A stretch of DNA of 28,869 nt from a virus, in IMG/VR virus record IMGVR_UViG_3300043429_000335, positions 1 to 28,869 of that record; one strand, 5' to 3'. Shown here one piece after another: positions 1,080 through 23,570 of the stretch (position 1 is the stretch's first letter; each line of letters starts with the position of its first letter). The notes below the pieces were generated by a model. That model worked only from the letters and a program-made list of their open reading frames with translations. It was not told the origin of the DNA and searched no databases. Made by a program: the position numbers and the translations under genes.

Positions 1080-2489
1080 ATGAAAATCCCAGGAATCCCC
1101 GAAATTTTTCAGCGTAAAGGCGCAAAAGCCAACGAATCTAATACGCTGTATGGGCAGACGGCCCTGGGAAACAATATCGTTTATCAGGGGGACAACAAGC
1201 GGCCCACTGTAAATACGCAAATTCTGTACGTCACCACATCCAGCACAACGGATGCAGGGCGACCAGTAGATACTAGCCTGCTTTCTCGCAATAGTACGGT
1301 TATGTCATGCGTTGCGGTAAAGGCTCGGGCTATTTCCCAACTGCCAATCAAAATTATGGCTAAAGCCGACGATGGCACATATGTGGATGCCATTTGTTCG
1401 GACAAAGTTGGTTCGCGGGATAAAGCAAAAGCCAAATCAGTATTGGGATTGTTGGAAAACCCTAACAATTTCCAAAGCCAATATGAATTCTGGTATCAAT
1501 TCATGATGTGGCATGAAATGCTTGGCGAAGCTTTTACCCTTTGGTGGAGAAAAGACCAAGACAACCCAAGCCAGACCCCGCTGGAAATGTATATTTTGGA
1601 CAGCACCCTAATTGCTGTCACTATCACCCCTGCTCGATACCCGTCTTATCGTCTTAGCACTCCAAGCTATGGATTTAGCAAAGATGAGCCGCTAGCATCG
1701 CATCAGGTGATGCACGTTAAAGATCAAGCGTGGCAAGGTTCTGCCGGTTTTAACAAAGGCATTTTGGCGGCTGAATTGGTGGGTTTGGATCAGGACATTG
1801 ATCTTTACGCCAATTACGTCATGCTAAACGGAGCAAAGCCCAGCGGTTTGTTTATTACCGAACAGGTAATCCCGGACAGCAAATATAAAGAGATTGCAGC
1901 GCGGCTAAAAGAAGCATGGTCTAGCATGGTCGGAAGCCAAAAGACCGACAAGAGCAAGCCGGGACAAGGAATGCTGCTCGATCAGGGCATGAAATACGAA
2001 GCCCTTAAACCTTTGACCTTGCAAGATACGGATTTGGCAAATCTGAAGCTGCAAACCATGAAGCGGATTTGTGCGGTGTATGGTGTTCCCCCGTCTATGG
2101 TGGGTGTTGGCGATAGCAAATACAACAACACTCAAACCATGCTGGATGAATTCTACAAATCGACGATGTATCCGGTTTTGGTCAATGTCCAGCAAAAGCT
2201 TAAACAGCAATTGTTTAACGGATACCCAAATCTTTATATTGAGTTTGATACAAAGAATTTCCTAAAAGGAGCGCCCCTGGATCAAATGAATTTTGCTCAG
2301 GCAGGCGTTACTAATAGCATCATGACACCCAACGAAGCTAGGGAATATCTTGGGATGCCTAAAATAGACGGCGGTGATGAAATGCAAAGCAAGGCAAAAC
2401 CAGCAGAACCAATTGCAGGCACTAGCCCACAGGATACAGGCGGCGGCGGCGGTAATCAGACCCGGAAAATGAATATAGGTTCAAAATAA
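1080..2489 (+). CDS. Portal protein, HK97 family
   Basis: Dodecameric ring at the unique capsid vertex through which DNA enters and to which the neck binds. The length (469 aa) is normal for the HK97 portal family. Recognisable stretches include SRNSTVMSCVAVKARAISQL near residues 68-87, a central YGVPPSMVGVGD segment, and MTPNEAREYLGMP near the C-terminus; these are standard portal motifs. The tail is Gly-rich and low complexity (GGGGGNQTRK). The start follows AAGGA with seven bases of spacing. The stop TAA shares its last A with the ATG of the next gene (TAATG), which is a GIY-YIG endonuclease rather than the expected protease, so a mobile gene sits inside the head operon. Confidence 0.93.
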   Translation: MKIPGIPEIFQRKGAKANESNTLYGQTALGNNIVYQGDNKRPTVNTQILYVTTSSTTDAGRPVDTSLLSRNSTVMSCVAVKARAISQLPIKIMAKADDGTYVDAICSDKVGSRDKAKAKSVLGLLENPNNFQSQYEFWYQFMMWHEMLGEAFTLWWRKDQDNPSQTPLEMYILDSTLIAVTITPARYPSYRLSTPSYGFSKDEPLASHQVMHVKDQAWQGSAGFNKGILAAELVGLDQDIDLYANYVMLNGAKPSGLFITEQVIPDSKYKEIAARLKEAWSSMVGSQKTDKSKPGQGMLLDQGMKYEALKPLTLQDTDLANLKLQTMKRICAVYGVPPSMVGVGDSKYNNTQTMLDEFYKSTMYPVLVNVQQKLKQQLFNGYPNLYIEFDTKNFLKGAPLDQMNFAQAGVTNSIMTPNEAREYLGMPKIDGGDEMQSKAKPAEPIAGTSPQDTGGGGGNQTRKMNIGSK

Positions 2490-3133
2490 TGTTCTATACC
2501 TACGCGCATTACAAGCCAAATGATGATGTGTTTTACATTGGAAAAGGCACTAAAAATCGGGCTTGGAGCGAACGAAGAAATCCACATTGGAAAAACATTG
2601 TTGCCAAAAACAAAGGTTATAAAGTAGAAATTCTCGCTAAATGGCCGACTGAACAAGAGGCGTTAGACCATGAGCGTTTTTTAATTGAATGTTTTCGTCA
2701 AATGGGTGCAAGGCTTGCCAATATAAGTGATGGCGGCAAGGGGCAAGCTGGCGTCAAAATGTCTCAAGACACTAGACGCAAAATGTCAGAAGCACACAAA
2801 AACAAATCAAAATCTATAGAACATAGACAAAGTTTTTCCGAGTCCATGAAAAAGCGCCCTAAAGAATATTGGGACAAAGTTCAAGCGGCTTTAAATTCCG
2901 AAAAAGTTAAATCAAAAGTATCTAAATTGCGTAGCGGGTCAAATAACGGTAATTTTTTGGGCGAGATTACCGCAACGAGTATTTTTACAGGTGAATCAAT
3001 TGTATGCGTGGGAACCAAACAGCTAAAGGCCGCTGGTTTCATCCCAAGTTGTGTTTATCAAGCATTACAAGGGCGAACCAAGACACACAAAGGGTATGTT
3101 TTTACAAGGATTAATTGTCTTGAAAAAACATGA
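2489..3133 (+). CDS. Free-standing GIY-YIG homing endonuclease with NUMOD3 repeats
   Basis: Probable mobile DNA endonuclease of 214 aa. The N-terminus reads FYTYAHY, then VFYIGKGTKNRAW, matching the paired GIY and YIG strands; Glu62 in DHERFLIE fits the catalytic acid. Residues about 91-127 carry SQDTRRKMSEAHKNK and a second similar stretch, typical of NUMOD3 DNA-binding repeats, and the rest of the C-terminus is Lys/Ser/Thr-rich. The ATG overlaps the portal stop, and the end overlaps the next small ORF by four bases (ATGA). There is no split gene on either side, so this looks free-standing rather than intron-borne. It plays no expected part in virion assembly. Confidence 0.88.
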   Translation: MFYTYAHYKPNDDVFYIGKGTKNRAWSERRNPHWKNIVAKNKGYKVEILAKWPTEQEALDHERFLIECFRQMGARLANISDGGKGQAGVKMSQDTRRKMSEAHKNKSKSIEHRQSFSESMKKRPKEYWDKVQAALNSEKVKSKVSKLRSGSNNGNFLGEITATSIFTGESIVCVGTKQLKAAGFIPSCVYQALQGRTKTHKGYVFTRINCLEKT

Positions 3134-3345
3134 GCTTGATTTTTAAAATAGTGGTAGCATCGTTGGCAACCTATAAGCCAACCGATGCACCGCCTAAGCG
3201 CGGCAGGCCACCGAAAACAATACACGATATAGATAAATCTAAAATCGGTGAGGTAATACATGACCAAACAAATGTTGATTCTGTGCGAAGCAAAACTACA
3301 AACAGAAGCGCAGCAAAGCGGAAAAGCCCCAACCGGAAAAATTGA
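3130..3345 (+). CDS. Small basic protein of unknown function (uncertain)
   Basis: A 71-residue ORF whose ATG overlaps the endonuclease stop (ATGA) and whose 3' end overlaps the protease gene by 86 bases in another frame. A hydrophobic start (MSLIFKIVVASLATY) is followed by PPKRGRPPKT, which resembles an AT-hook (Arg-Gly-Arg-Pro core). The region from 3134 to 3259 would otherwise be a gap inside a tightly packed operon, which favours a real gene, but the last 28 residues lie over the protease frame and look compositionally arbitrary. I do not recognise a family. It could be a native small gene, or a remnant left when the endonuclease inserted. Confidence 0.45.
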   Translation: MSLIFKIVVASLATYKPTDAPPKRGRPPKTIHDIDKSKIGEVIHDQTNVDSVRSKTTNRSAAKRKSPNRKN

Positions 3346-4063
3346 AGCACGGGTTACAACCTGGGGGCCGCGAGAGGGCGCGGATGGTAGGCGTTTCTTC
3401 TATAAGGCCGAGGGCTTTATGGATTGGGCCAAAGAATTTACAGGGTCTGGTCGGCCATTGCCCATGTTTGTCAATCATTCAGCGGATCAAATCCCTGTTG
3501 GCGAATGGACAGAATTTGCGTTTGATGATGAGGGCATGACGGCCACCGGCAGGCTGTACATGAACACCAGTCAAGGCGCAGACCTTTATAACGTCATGAC
3601 CGAAAGCCCCGCAATGTTTGGCGGCGTTTCTGTTGGCGCCTATGCTGAAGAATATCAATGGGTCAAAGAGGATGGTTCGGTGTTTCCCGCAGGATCTGGT
3701 GAATATTGGGATGAAGGTTATTTCCAAATCACCAAAGGCGGTTTGCGCGAAGTGTCCGTAGTTATGTACCCTAACAATCCTGCTGCCGAAGTTCAAAAGC
3801 TGGAATTTTTCCGGCCTGACGGTTCGGCTGATCTAAAAATTTTGGAAAAGGCACTGCGCGAGGCAGGGCTGTCCAAGAAAGATGCGGTCACTGCCGCATC
3901 TACTTTCAAGAAAGTTTTGGAGCAGCGCGAAGCTGTTGCAAGCAATCTTGAATCTGCGCCGAATCAGGGCGATCCTGATGCGGAAGTGACCGAAGCGGCA
4001 ATACTCGCAGCACTTGAACAGCGAGAATTGCTAAATGCTCTTAATGCCCGTTTGAAAGGTTAA
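3260..4063 (+). CDS. Prohead maturation protease, HK97 (U35/S78-like) family
   Basis: Serine protease that clips the capsid delta domain and then itself during head maturation. The 267-residue product shows the family's landmarks in order: PMFVNHSADQIPVG with the probable catalytic His73, AMFGGVSVGAYAEE with the probable nucleophile Ser124, and GGLREVSVVMYPNNPAAEV with a conserved Glu164. The C-terminal third (about residues 185-267) is charged and helical, as expected of a linker or scaffold-associated tail. The start is chosen for GGTGAGG six bases upstream of the ATG. The stop lies two bases before the capsid start, and this adjacency supports the role. Assignment of individual catalytic residues is by family pattern. 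Confidence 0.9.
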   Translation: MTKQMLILCEAKLQTEAQQSGKAPTGKIEARVTTWGPREGADGRRFFYKAEGFMDWAKEFTGSGRPLPMFVNHSADQIPVGEWTEFAFDDEGMTATGRLYMNTSQGADLYNVMTESPAMFGGVSVGAYAEEYQWVKEDGSVFPAGSGEYWDEGYFQITKGGLREVSVVMYPNNPAAEVQKLEFFRPDGSADLKILEKALREAGLSKKDAVTAASTFKKVLEQREAVASNLESAPNQGDPDAEVTEAAILAALEQRELLNALNARLKG

Positions 4064-4065
4064 TC

Positions 4066-5415
4066 ATGCTCGACAAAATTATCGAAAAAGTTGATGCTAT
4101 TGCAGCATCCAACGAAGCAAAAATCAGCGAAATCACGGCGGCTGCTGAAGCCAAAGTGGATGCAGCAAAAGCCGAACTGACCGAAAAAGTCGCAGCTTTG
4201 GAAGCCAAAATTTCCACCCTGCAAGCCCCTGCTTACATCGAGCGCACTAGCCCGAGCGTTCGCAAAGAAGTCAACAAATCGGTGCGCGAACAACTCAAGC
4301 AAGTTGTTTCGGGCAAATCGCAGTTTGAAAAAGAACTGAAGATTTTTGCTAATGAAGCCGAAATGCAAGCTTATCTGAGCGAAGCATCTGCTCTGACAGG
4401 CGGCGGTAATAACCAAGGTGGCCGCACCGCCTATGATCCGGTGTTCCGTGCGCTGCGTCTGGCTAATCCCCTGCGTGGTTTGTCTCGCACCGTTGCTACT
4501 GATGGTTCTAGCTATCAGTTTCGCGTGAAGACCGGCAACGCTGGCGCACAGTGGGGCTATGGCATTCAAAACAACGGCGCTGCCACAACTGAAGACACCA
4601 GCATTTGGCAAATTGTGCTGAAGGATATTAACGTCCAATTCCCGATCCGCACTGCGGCTCTGGATGACATTGATGGCCTGGAAGCCAACGTGGTTGACGA
4701 TATGTTGGCTGAATTCGCACAAAGCGAAGCCCTGTCCATGATTGCCAACAACGACCAGTCTGGAACCGGCACATCCGTTGCAACTGGTGGCGCTGACGGT
4801 CTGCGTGGTCTGGATCAGTATCCTGGCGCTAACGCTGTTTATGCTGGCGGCACGTTCAGCACATCGGCTTTCGGCACTAGCGGCACTGGCTCTACCAGCG
4901 GTCTGCACAATGTGGCAACCTATGACCAGATCACCACCAACGGCAACACCGTTGGCGCAAACAACATCACCTATAACGATGTTATCAATCTGATCTATGC
5001 GCTGCCGCAGCAGTACTGGACTGAATCGGCTAAGTTTGTCATCAGCCCGATTTTGCTCAACGGCATTCGGAACCTGAAAGACAACAACGGCGCACCGATT
5101 TTCAATCGTAATGAGGGTCTGTCGGTTGAGGGCATCGTCGGCCAGTTGCTCGGCTTTGATGTTGTCGTTAACAAGTATCTGGACACCCCATCGCAAACCA
5201 CCACTGGTTCGGCTGGCACAACTAGCCTGTACCCGATGTACTTTGCCGATTGGAGCCGGTTCCATACCATTATCGACCGCCTGAATATGGTTATGCGTAG
5301 ATACGACCAGACGCTGCCCGGCTTTATCACCTTCTTTGGTGAAAAACGTCTGGCTACATCTGTGCGCGATCCGTTCGCTGGTGTGCGTTATCGTTCCACT
5401 GCGACAGCGACCTAA
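4066..5415 (+). CDS. Major capsid protein 1, HK97 fold, with delta domain
   Basis: Main shell protein. Residues 1 to about 105 are Ala/Glu/Lys-rich with heptad-like coiled coil (AAAEAKVDAAKAELTEKV), matching the delta domain that acts as an internal scaffold and is removed by the protease. The probable cleavage zone is near EASALTGG (106-113). After it come ANPLRGL, KTGNAGAQWGY, FPIRTAALDD, a helix containing DDMLAEFAQSEALSM, and the terminal GFITFFGEKR...VRDPFAGVRY, typical of HK97-fold capsids. Length 449 aa; the mature form would be roughly 340 aa. A strong hairpin terminator follows the stop. A full-length antisense frame exists over this gene but looks like a codon-bias shadow. Confidence 0.93.
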   Translation: MLDKIIEKVDAIAASNEAKISEITAAAEAKVDAAKAELTEKVAALEAKISTLQAPAYIERTSPSVRKEVNKSVREQLKQVVSGKSQFEKELKIFANEAEMQAYLSEASALTGGGNNQGGRTAYDPVFRALRLANPLRGLSRTVATDGSSYQFRVKTGNAGAQWGYGIQNNGAATTEDTSIWQIVLKDINVQFPIRTAALDDIDGLEANVVDDMLAEFAQSEALSMIANNDQSGTGTSVATGGADGLRGLDQYPGANAVYAGGTFSTSAFGTSGTGSTSGLHNVATYDQITTNGNTVGANNITYNDVINLIYALPQQYWTESAKFVISPILLNGIRNLKDNNGAPIFNRNEGLSVEGIVGQLLGFDVVVNKYLDTPSQTTTGSAGTTSLYPMYFADWSRFHTIIDRLNMVMRRYDQTLPGFITFFGEKRLATSVRDPFAGVRYRSTATAT

Positions 5416-5428
5416 TTGCGTTGCCCTT

Positions 5429-5456
5429 GGCGGGGGGTTCGCCCCCTGCCTTTTTT
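5429..5456 (+). terminator. Intrinsic terminator between the two capsid genes
   Basis: A nine-pair stem (5429-5437 with 5442-5450, one G-T pair) closes a TTCG tetraloop and is followed directly by six T residues, then C. This is a textbook Rho-independent terminator. It sits 14 bases after the first capsid stop and 24 bases before the second capsid ATG, so it likely caps abundant capsid mRNA and reduces read-through into the second capsid gene and the connector genes. Confidence 0.85.
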
Positions 5457-5479
5457 CAAGCAATTAAATTGGACAAATC

Positions 5480-6496
5480 ATGAACACCAGCGAAAAAATC
5501 CTGAACGGTATTAAACAGGCAATCACAGAAGGCAAAGAAGCCACTATTGATTTGCGCGAGGCATCTGCTCTAACCGGCTCGGGTTCTGGTGTCGGTGGTA
5601 ATGTTGTCTTTGATGATGCGTTTGCTGCGCTGCGTTACGCAAACCCATTGCGAATGATGGCGCGAGAGGTTCCGGTTATTGGATCGGATATGCAGTTTGT
5701 CGCTAAGACAGGTAATGCTGCTAACAGCACAAATCCTTGGGGCTACACTTTTACCCCTAACAGCGGCTCCCCCAACATTAATACAAGCATCTGGCAGCTT
5801 CCTGTCCGGGTAGTGGTTGCTCAAATGCCAATCCGCACGGCTGTATTGTCAGACGTTAATAATCTTGATGCTACCCTGGCCGATGACCTTGCGCTTGAAT
5901 TCGCCCAGCTAGAGGGCGCATCAATGGTGCAGAACAACGATCAATCTGGATCGACCACAACCAGCACGGGCGCAGAAAGCGGTCTGCGTGGTTTGGATAT
6001 GTACGTTAGTGGCGCAGCTAGTGCTTATGGCACATCTGGCGTAAACATCACTAATGGCATTCATACCATCGCAACGGTTTCGCTGGGCGGTTCGGCTGTC
6101 ACCTACAACAAGGTGGTGGATATGGTCAATGCGTTGCCCTCTCAGTATTGGGCACTCCCAGGCACTGCTTGGCATATGACCCCGACAATGATTCAGACGC
6201 TGCGTCAGTTGAAAGATTTGCAGGGCTTGCCGCTGTTCCTTGAAATTGGCGACAAAGACGGTTCTGCTGTTGGCAATGTGTTTGGGTTCCCGGTTATTGC
6301 CAATCCCTATTTGACCAACGCATTTCCGATCTATCTAGGCAACTGGCCCAGGTTCCTGACCATTGGCGACACTGAGCAAATGACCATTAAATCGTTTGAG
6401 CAGACTAGCCCAGGCTTTATCACCATGTTTGCGGAAAAGCGGGTGGTGTCGTCGGTGCGCGATCCCTTTGCTGGTGTCCGTATGAGCGCGGCCTAA
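5480..6496 (+). CDS. Major capsid protein 2, HK97-fold paralog without delta domain
   Basis: A 338-residue paralog of the preceding capsid protein. Shared landmarks run the whole length: EASALTG (27-33 here, 106-112 in the first), ANPLR, KTGNA, TSIWQ, PIRTA, LEFAQ/AEFAQ, NNDQSG, GLRGLD, ALPSQYW/ALPQQYW, and SSVRDPFAGVR/TSVRDPFAGVR at the end. It keeps only about 26 residues before the EASALTG block instead of about 105, so the coiled-coil scaffold part is missing. It follows the terminator and has only a weak GGA upstream of the ATG. It may co-assemble as a minor shell or vertex protein, or be a domesticated duplicate. Capsid homology is firm; the role is inference. Confidence 0.88.
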   Translation: MNTSEKILNGIKQAITEGKEATIDLREASALTGSGSGVGGNVVFDDAFAALRYANPLRMMAREVPVIGSDMQFVAKTGNAANSTNPWGYTFTPNSGSPNINTSIWQLPVRVVVAQMPIRTAVLSDVNNLDATLADDLALEFAQLEGASMVQNNDQSGSTTTSTGAESGLRGLDMYVSGAASAYGTSGVNITNGIHTIATVSLGGSAVTYNKVVDMVNALPSQYWALPGTAWHMTPTMIQTLRQLKDLQGLPLFLEIGDKDGSAVGNVFGFPVIANPYLTNAFPIYLGNWPRFLTIGDTEQMTIKSFEQTSPGFITMFAEKRVVSSVRDPFAGVRMSAA

Positions 6497-6509: not shown

Positions 6510-7178
6510 ATGACGATTGAACAGGTCGGTTATCTAAATTACGGTGCGCCGACACGCAATCCGTTCAATTACGAAAAAGTCGAGCAAATTGGGCGCGACA
6601 TTGCGACCCAATGGCTTGATACTGAGAGCATTGCTCAGCAGCTAAACTTGTTTGAGGATCAATCGCAAGACGGATATCTTGAATCACTGGAATTGGCTGT
6701 TCGGCAGGCCATCGAGGATTTTTTGGGAATGTCCATATTCCCAACGCAATACCGTGTCTGGTACAACGCATCGTCGCTGTACGGGACACCGTTGACGCTG
6801 GATCTGCCTGAAGTTTCGCAAAATCAATCCCCGTCCTTGTCTGGAGTGCAAATTAACTCCGTCAAATACTGGACACAAGCGACACCGCCTGTTCTTGTGA
6901 CCGTGGCGGCTAATCAGTACTATTACGACAACAGCGGGAACAAAGTTGTTTTGCAAAGCTTGCCAAGCAATTTGAATACCGCAATGACAAGCCCTGTTTA
7001 TTGCGAATACACGACAGCGGCAAACCCGTTGGCTCAGTATCCGGTAATCAAACAAGCTGGATTGCTTTTGTTTGTGCATCTGTACAACAACCGAAGCAAT
7101 ACAACCGAAAGCACCTTGAGAGAAATTCCATTCGGTGTTGCTACTTTGCTGCGGCCTTACAAACCACTGGTGATGTGA
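6510..7178 (+). CDS. Head-tail adaptor (gp6-like connector)
   Basis: Probable adaptor ring that docks under the portal and closes the head with the stopper. The 222-residue product has an acidic helical N-terminal half (about 35-75, ESLELAVRQAIEDFLGM) and the C-terminal signature QAGLLLFVHLYNNRSNT...IPFGVATLLRPYKPLVM, which matches the alpha-helical core of gp6-like connectors (helix, Tyr-x-x-Arg, then Ile-Pro-x-Gly-Val and an LL-x-Pro-Tyr end). A long beta-rich insertion (about residues 85-160) makes it roughly twice the length of the smallest family members. GGGGGC lies upstream of the ATG. The position directly after the capsid genes supports the call. Confidence 0.8.
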   Translation: MTIEQVGYLNYGAPTRNPFNYEKVEQIGRDIATQWLDTESIAQQLNLFEDQSQDGYLESLELAVRQAIEDFLGMSIFPTQYRVWYNASSLYGTPLTLDLPEVSQNQSPSLSGVQINSVKYWTQATPPVLVTVAANQYYYDNSGNKVVLQSLPSNLNTAMTSPVYCEYTTAANPLAQYPVIKQAGLLLFVHLYNNRSNTTESTLREIPFGVATLLRPYKPLVM

Positions 7179-12884: not shown

Positions 12885-13486
12885 ATGTCATTGCACCAGT
12901 TGAAGGAACTAGCAATATCCGCATTGCGGATTTTTTGCGAATCACAACAACTAGCGGCACTTATCTGATGACCACTGCGCCATCGGATATGACCATTGCG
13001 GCTGTTGATGCTAGCCCGTTTCAATCAGTCGGCACGTTGCTGGCGATCGGTGAAGTCCAGCGAGATATTAAATCAACGGCAAATGACACCACTGTTACGC
13101 TGTCGGGCATTGACACAGCGATGTTAGGTTTTGTTCTTGGGCAAAATGTCAAAGGCTCACCAATTCAGCTTTGGCACGGATTCTTTGACACAAACGGCGC
13201 ATTGATTACTACGGGCGGCACCGGTGGCCTGTATCAGTATTTCAACGGCATCATTACTTCATTCTCAATCGGTGAACAATGGATGGATGAGGCCCGAATG
13301 TATGTTGGTTCAATTAGCGTTTCTGCATCCTCAATTCAGTTGATTTTGCAAAACAGAATTGCAGGCCGATACACAAATAATAGTAGCTGGCAGTTTTACA
13401 ACAGCGGCGACACATCAATGAATCGAGTTCCGTTCATTGAAACAATTAACTATCAATTCGGCAAAGATGCGCCCCCTAATTCGTAA
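12881..13486 (+). CDS. Tail tip / hub protein B
   Basis: A 201-residue product from the ATG at 12881, which overlaps the previous stop. The longer open frame from 12845 is less likely, because it would add residues lying over the upstream gene. The C-terminal half contains YFNGIITSFSIGEQWMDEAR, then a strand region, and RIAGRYTNNSSWQFYN with DTSMNRV, a pattern seen in small tail-tip proteins that precede the large gpJ-like gene (Gly-Arg-x-Thr-Asn and Asp-x-Ser-Met, then a Phe-Gly-Lys end, here FGKDAPPNS). It probably forms part of the tip ring between tape measure and central hub. It overlaps the GNAT gene by 20 bases. Confidence 0.62.
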   Translation: MNVIAPVEGTSNIRIADFLRITTTSGTYLMTTAPSDMTIAAVDASPFQSVGTLLAIGEVQRDIKSTANDTTVTLSGIDTAMLGFVLGQNVKGSPIQLWHGFFDTNGALITTGGTGGLYQYFNGIITSFSIGEQWMDEARMYVGSISVSASSIQLILQNRIAGRYTNNSSWQFYNSGDTSMNRVPFIETINYQFGKDAPPNS

Positions 13487-13922
13487 AGCATCGCCATTTG
13501 ATATTGAGCAGATCCTAGACAGACTGCGGGATTACCGTTCCCATATGCCTTATGGGTTCTTGGCAGATGCTGATGACGCAGAACACATTAAAACGATGCT
13601 CACGCAATTGATGGCGGGGCAAGGTGTGGTGATAGTGGCAGAGCAGGAAAAACGCATTGTGGGCGTTTTAATCGCAGGCGTGATGCCCTCTATCTGGTCG
13701 CCTAAGCATCTGATGCTAACGGAATTTGCCTACTGGGTTGATGAGAAAGCCAGGGGCGGCACGACAGGCTATAGATTGTTGCGCGAGTATTTAGACGAAG
13801 CGGTTAAGATGCGGGAAGCTGGCAGAATTGCTAATTGCTTTATCAGCAAGATGGTAAACAGTCCCGATCTAAATTATGAGCGTTTCGGCTTTCAAAAACT
13901 TGAAGAATTCTGGGTGATGTAA
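13467..13922 (+). CDS. GNAT-fold acetyltransferase-like protein in the tail-tip cluster
   Basis: A 151-residue protein from ATG 13467. GNAT features appear in order: an N-terminal strand-helix (LIRKASPFDIEQILDRLRDY), the strand pair VVIVAEQEKRIVGVLIAG, a strand ending in TEFAYWVDEKARGGTTGYRL whose Arg-Gly-Gly-Thr-Thr-Gly fits the acetyl-CoA pyrophosphate loop, and the closing NYERFGFQKLEEFWVM typical of GNAT C-termini. It sits between hub protein B and the gpJ-like protein, where many phages carry an NlpC/P60 tail peptidase. It might modify a virion protein or have lost catalysis and become structural; acetyltransferase-like small virion proteins occur in other phages (for example T7 gp13). 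Its substrate is unknown. Confidence 0.78.
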   Translation: MRPLIRKASPFDIEQILDRLRDYRSHMPYGFLADADDAEHIKTMLTQLMAGQGVVIVAEQEKRIVGVLIAGVMPSIWSPKHLMLTEFAYWVDEKARGGTTGYRLLREYLDEAVKMREAGRIANCFISKMVNSPDLNYERFGFQKLEEFWVM

Positions 13923-20589: not shown

Positions 20590-23024
<2,435 letters not shown>

Positions 23025-23028
<4 letters not shown>

Positions 23029-23570
23029 CACATCTGCCAATTTGGTATCTGAAAACAATTTCCCCCGAAGACTGTGATAAAGCAATTGATGAGCTAGGCA
23101 AATTCGCAACGAAAGATGCAACGATGGGCAGCGATGGCGAGTCAAAATCGCATCAACATCGCAATACATCAGTGGTGTTTGCCCCGTTTAATTATTGGCT
23201 GTCGCAGCAATTGACCGATGTGGCGTATGAGGCCAACAAAACTTGCGGCTGGGATTACGACATTGACGGCCGCGAAGCAATCCAGTTGGCTAAATACGCG
23301 GAGGGGCAGCACTACCATTGGCACGTTGATACGTTCACGCTAGCAGGCAGGCCGACAGACCGCAAAATCACTTGCGTGGCGTTGCTAAACGATACGAGCG
23401 AATGGGAAGGCGGGGAATTGCAACTGCGTTTGTATGACGAATACAAAGTGCCATTGGAAAAAGGCACTGTAGTTGCGTTCCCATCTATTTTGGAACACAG
23501 GGTAACGCCTGTATTGAAAGGATTTCGCTACACGGCGACAATCTGGTTTAATGGCCCGAGGTTTAGATGA
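23025..23570 (+). CDS. 2OG-Fe(II) oxygenase, PKHD / prolyl hydroxylase type
   Basis: A 181-residue non-haem iron dioxygenase. The metal triad is visible: HVD at 100-102 (in HYHWHVDTF) and His158 (in LEHRVTPV), with Arg168 ten residues later ([10 protein letters not shown]) positioned to bind 2-oxoglutarate. [10 protein letters not shown] and KGTVVAFPS between them are typical family strands. Members hydroxylate prolines or other residues using O2 and 2-oxoglutarate. Its ATG overlaps the stop of the collagen-like fibre (ATGA), so the two are co-translated; the fibre's Gly-X-Y blocks are an obvious candidate substrate. The catalytic family is firm, the substrate is inference; other phage PKHD enzymes have no known target. 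Confidence 0.88.

Follow-up and report, generated by a model that had tools for sequence, protein, structure and literature searches.

We found that a stretch of viral DNA of 28,869 nucleotides (IMG/VR record IMGVR_UViG_3300043429_000335; all of it is referred to below as the window) carries two adjacent, intact genes, capA and capB, which encode HK97-fold capsid paralogs, and that this capsid pair is constant across a clade of phages. We propose, at a probability of roughly 0.6, that CapA forms the hexons and CapB the pentons of the head, like gp23 and gp24 of T4, in an arrangement that would have arisen separately in a siphophage of ~38 kb. The proposal draws on the paralogy of the two proteins, their fixed order, an old duplication, selection on both genes, a terminator between them, unequal codon bias, insertions in the A domain, and the precedent of T4.

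A tandem pair of HK97-fold capsid genes

The head genes run in the order terminase, portal, S78 prohead protease, CapA, CapB, and head–tail adaptor Ad1 (Table 1). The tandem capsid reading frames of the original prediction were both recovered, as were the sequence blocks that it had noted in the two proteins; BLASTP aligns CapA and CapB with 43% identity over 342 positions (E 3e-85), covering the mature region from just upstream of EASALTG in both to near the C-terminus. Against a Pfam gathering cut-off of 24.2 bits, CapA scores 96.5 bits and CapB 84.1 bits with Phage_capsid (PF05065), which is also matched at E <=0.01 by 33 of 38 CapB relatives. PF05065 is the only Pfam family that either protein matches at this threshold, and neither matches the T4-type capsid family. 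The nearest relative of CapA is CapB, and vice versa.

Table 1. Features of the capsid region (positions are those of the window)
Feature	Position	Strand	Evidence
S78 prohead protease gene	3260..4063	+	PF04586 E 4e-08; PHROG head maturation protease; immediately 5' of capA
capA, major capsid protein, proposed hexon subunit, 449 aa	4066..5415	+	PF05065 E 2.4e-27; Nc 41.4; dN/dS 0.12
CapA N-terminal extension (residues 1-104), proposed delta (scaffold) domain	4066..4377	+	Missing from CapB; predicted helix 2-50
Intrinsic terminator in the capA/capB gap, GGCGGGGGGTTCGCCCCCTGCC + TTTTTT	5429..5456	+	Hairpin and T run
capB, second HK97-fold capsid protein, proposed penton subunit, 338 aa	5480..6496	+	PF05065 E 1.5e-23; HK97 fold of model
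CapB short conserved N-terminus (~residues 1-24), possible short propeptide	5480..5551	+	Conserved in alignment; model helix 3-17
Head–tail adaptor (Ad1-like) gene, immediately 3' of capB	6510..7178	+	PF05135, phrog_40

The predicted structure of CapB (model pLDDT 68) has the HK97 fold, with a Foldseek E of 3e-15 and a Z of 19.4 to the capsid of the Rhodobacter capsulatus gene transfer agent (RcGTA; 6TB9, 6TBA); the structure-based comparison was made with the CapB model alone, that of CapA being too poor. The RcGTA capsid is the nearest solved capsid both by structure and by sequence (CapA profile E 2e-07), while differing in that its oblate head, of T=3 type, takes both pentamers and hexamers from one capsid gene (PMC7296036). 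The fold of HK97 gp5 is likewise common to CapB (8fqk, Z 16.2). The 50 best structural matches of CapB include no T4 chain, a result that is uninformative on kinship.

Different N-termini and A domains

As had been predicted, the two proteins differ in the number of residues ahead of EASALTG, ~104 in CapA and 24–26 in CapB. The long helical N-terminal extension expected of a self-scaffolding capsid protein is found in CapA, where the long helix is predicted with moderate confidence, but not in CapB (~24 residues). Within CapA, dN/dS is 0.16 for the extension versus 0.10 for the mature part. The claim that one paralog lacks the delta domain is right for this long helical part and too strong for the N-terminus as a whole, which CapB retains in a short form conserved across its relatives (consensus MxITEKILxGIKQAI). 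Because this segment is conserved and CapB retains the EAS motif, close to the presumed cleavage site of CapA, it may be a short propeptide.

In the mature region, 32 of the 37 columns in which CapA is longer fall in the A domain (domain limits were drawn by us from the CapB model), and the E-loop, spine helix, and P domain have nearly the same length in both proteins. The A domain forms the capsomer centre in the HK97 fold. The length difference is consistent with different capsomer symmetries, without being proof of them. In T4, some of the gp23 mutations that bypass gp24, so that gp23 replaces it in pentamers, map to the A domain (PMC9958956).

Conservation, age, and selection

The phages belong to a widespread group of small freshwater phages (~38 kb), in which one cultured phage stands beside hundreds of relatives from metagenomes. 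We compared 187 loci, which came from four scans of viral and genome collections and from the cultured phage P19250A (a few contigs occur twice). Both genes are present in all 178 fetched loci with room for two; when the window is included, 178 of 188 sequences carry CapA and then CapB, and each of the remaining 10 ends at a contig edge. The 154 complete pairs represent 122 distinct protein pairs. The protease lies 5' of capA in 144/144 loci with room for it, and the adaptor directly 3' of capB in 146/146. No close relative with one capsid gene of the pair was found in the viral contigs, genomes, and phage records searched; distant phages carry one capsid gene downstream of the protease. One trait of a two-component shell of T4 type, as defined by function, is seen here, a conserved pair of capsid paralogs in a single phage.

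The only cultured member found, Methylophilaceae phage P19250A (KX815270), is a siphophage of 38.7 kb that has the same pair in the same order, with CapA 60% and CapB 56% identical to those of the window and a hairpin between the genes. In its record CapB is annotated as "hypothetical protein," and the pair goes unrecognised there. Phage Venkman (MT375522), described as syntenic with P19250A (PMC8163748), was considered as a second cultured example and rejected; its annotated head module combines a scaffolding protein with just one capsid gene, an unrelated one, and no relative of CapA or CapB was found in it.

The alignment of relatives also dates the duplication. A tree without outgroup divides CapA from CapB at one fully supported branch, and trees built for each protein by itself are congruent (Mantel r 0.61; none of 999 permutations reached this value). 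Our first tree, rooted on the nearest single-capsid phages, which are very distant, placed the root inside CapA. We do not trust this rooting, because a tree with CapA held together has a likelihood 9.3 higher and is not rejected (p-AU 0.68). Taken together, the one-branch split, the congruent trees, and the more likely CapA-together tree show that a single duplication predates the radiation of the sampled clade and that the pair has been mostly co-inherited.

Strong purifying selection acts on both genes, with median dN/dS values of ~0.12 for each and values below 1 for CapB in 168 of 168 pairs. CapB showed neither relaxed selection nor a recurrent frameshift in relatives, signs that would have spoken against a distinct shell role for it. 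The co-occurrence of both genes and the dN/dS values rule out a pseudogene or an assembly artefact.

Expression signals between the two genes

The gap of 64 nt between capA and capB contains an intrinsic-terminator hairpin followed by a run of six T. Terminator-like sites are not in excess in the first 20 kb of the window (26 found versus 25.8 expected in shuffles), and the weight of this one therefore lies in its conservation. A strict scan for a hairpin plus T run was passed by 95 of the 101 distinct sequences that follow capA, with 59 different hairpin sequences among them, as compared to 5/114 after capB and 54/1737 random stretches of the same loci. A G+C-rich hairpin is visible by eye in the six that did not pass, of which two (L145, L146) are without the T run.

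Codon usage points in the same direction. The Nc of capA is the lowest, and its codon bias hence the strongest, among the 20 window genes checked, while capB (52.0) is close to the adaptor (52.4) and in this respect resembles the connector genes. The Nc of capA is below that of capB in 145 of 154 genomes. The conserved terminator and the unequal codon bias suggest that CapA is produced in excess over CapB, possibly in large excess; these signals give the direction of the ratio alone, and any scarce capsid component would fit them.

Other features of the loci

A gene resembling GIY-YIG homing endonucleases (phrog_314, E 4e-18) lies between portal and protease in the window (2489–3133). Such a gene occupies this site in just 4 of 110 loci with room for it, which indicates a recent, patchy insertion. 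In a single contig (L022, identical with L099), capA has an in-frame TAG at codon 150 (around 4030 of L022) next to an intact capB, which we attribute to a sequencing error or a damaged genome.

Further downstream, the region 20590–23570 of the window encodes a collagen-like protein with GPTGPT repeats (PF01391, E 3e-29) and a Peptidase_S74 chaperone domain (PF13884), whose gene is overlapped by 4 nt by that of a 2OG-Fe(II) oxygenase (PF13640, E 3e-19). The combination hints at a prolyl hydroxylase with a collagen-like phage fibre as its substrate. A GNAT acetyltransferase-like gene (PF00583, E 9e-05; 13437–13922) is located within the tail cluster, just 5' of a J-like host specificity gene.

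Proposed shell and alternative roles of CapB

We propose that two HK97-fold paralogs make up the siphophage head. CapA would be the abundant, self-scaffolding subunit, whose long N-terminal extension would serve as the delta domain and be removed near EASALTG by the S78 prohead protease, and its hexamers would form the faces. Transcription would mostly end at the hairpin between the genes, so that less CapB is made. CapB would enter the prohead lattice under the scaffold of CapA, as pentamers at the eleven non-portal vertices, and would lose a short N-terminal peptide at most. A T=7 head, which is suggested by the genome size of ~38 kb, as in HK97, would require 360 copies of CapA and 55 of CapB.

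T4 offers the closest functional parallel, as it also has two paralogous HK97-fold proteins in one phage, and its vertex protein gp24 is a low-copy component (55 copies) with a propeptide of 10 residues versus 65 for gp23 (PMC5694885, PMC9958956). The two systems differ in several respects. The pair described here belongs to a different capsid family, PF05065, and its members share 43% identity, as compared to ~17–20% for gp23 and gp24. T4 is a large myophage whose scaffold forms a core of its own, whereas here a ~38-kb siphophage carries a delta-type extension. With the terminator, the codon bias, and the A-domain length differences in its favor, the suggestion in the original prediction that CapB acts like gp24 is the best-supported reading, in which we infer both that CapB is part of the virion and that it sits in the pentons.

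The HK97 operon resembles the window in that a protease is followed by a capsid protein bearing its delta domain at the N-terminus, by a terminator (annotated as putative in HK97), and by the adaptor Ad1; it differs in that one gp5 makes both hexamers and pentamers, and the window has an extra capsid gene between terminator and adaptor. To our knowledge, a single protein serves both capsomers in all other well-studied HK97-type phages, and a dedicated penton protein is for this reason not needed in principle.

In the main rival to the penton role, CapA and CapB assemble together into mixed capsomers in varying proportions, and CapB tunes shell stability without filling a fixed position. With 43% identity between them, the two subunits could make compatible contacts, and a cellular example exists in the two-component Family 2B encapsulin of Streptomyces lydicus (9bje, 9bix), whose paired genes encode two HK97-fold proteins of one shell that form seemingly random hetero-pentamers (PMC12407261) and whose structures occur among the structural matches of the CapB model. 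This encapsulin is a cellular compartment with neither portal nor protease. Mixed capsomers are rather unlikely, given the strict geometry that portal-bearing phage heads require and the unequal expression signals and difference in A-domain length, which suggest separate capsomers.

The low codon bias that capB shares with the adaptor gene, and its position next to that gene in every locus with room, would also suit a special site for CapB, such as the neck or the capsomer ring that surrounds the portal, with a few delta-less copies helping there to fit the twelve-fold portal into a five-fold vertex. We consider this improbable, as tandem duplication alone explains the gene position, CapB retains a full-length mature capsid fold, and other siphophages fit their portals without such a protein. 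Lower still stands the idea that CapB is redundant, alternative, or absent from the virion (as a duplicate kept for dosage, a regulator of assembly, or the subunit of a second head size): duplicates can persist for dosage or alternative use and the packaging of CapB is presumed, but the duplication is old, the trees are congruent, dN/dS is 0.12, no relative has lost the gene, CapB is without a long delta domain to scaffold a separate head, and the earlier suggestion that it sets a different capsid size found no support, since both genes are in every phage and the longest related contigs cluster at ~36–41 kb with no sign of two genome sizes.

Implications

The HK97 fold is known, as is the concept of a vertex paralog; the conserved terminator between capA and capB is new. 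According to a 2025 paper, T4 alone among viruses assigns separate roles to two HK97-fold proteins (PMC12407261), a 2026 review linked single-protein shells to small genomes (PMC13185644), and we found no published dual HK97-fold siphophage of this kind in the open-access literature. As CapA and CapB are both members of PF05065 and each is the nearest relative of the other, the pair would have an origin separate from that of gp23 and gp24. Whether these phages, with ~38-kb genomes and a delta-domain capsid protein, represent a second, independently evolved division of labour between hexons and pentons in tailed phages is in our estimate an even bet. In this reading, duplication of the capsid gene to a place beyond its own terminator could have yielded, in one event, both a delta-less subunit and a low expression suited to pentons.

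If the proposal is true, pentons can form from a subunit without a delta domain of its own. Because the identity of CapA and CapB is far above that of gp23 and gp24, the clade offers a clearer case than T4 for asking which changes convert a hexon subunit to a penton subunit, and it also bears on whether a penton subunit requires its own scaffold domain.
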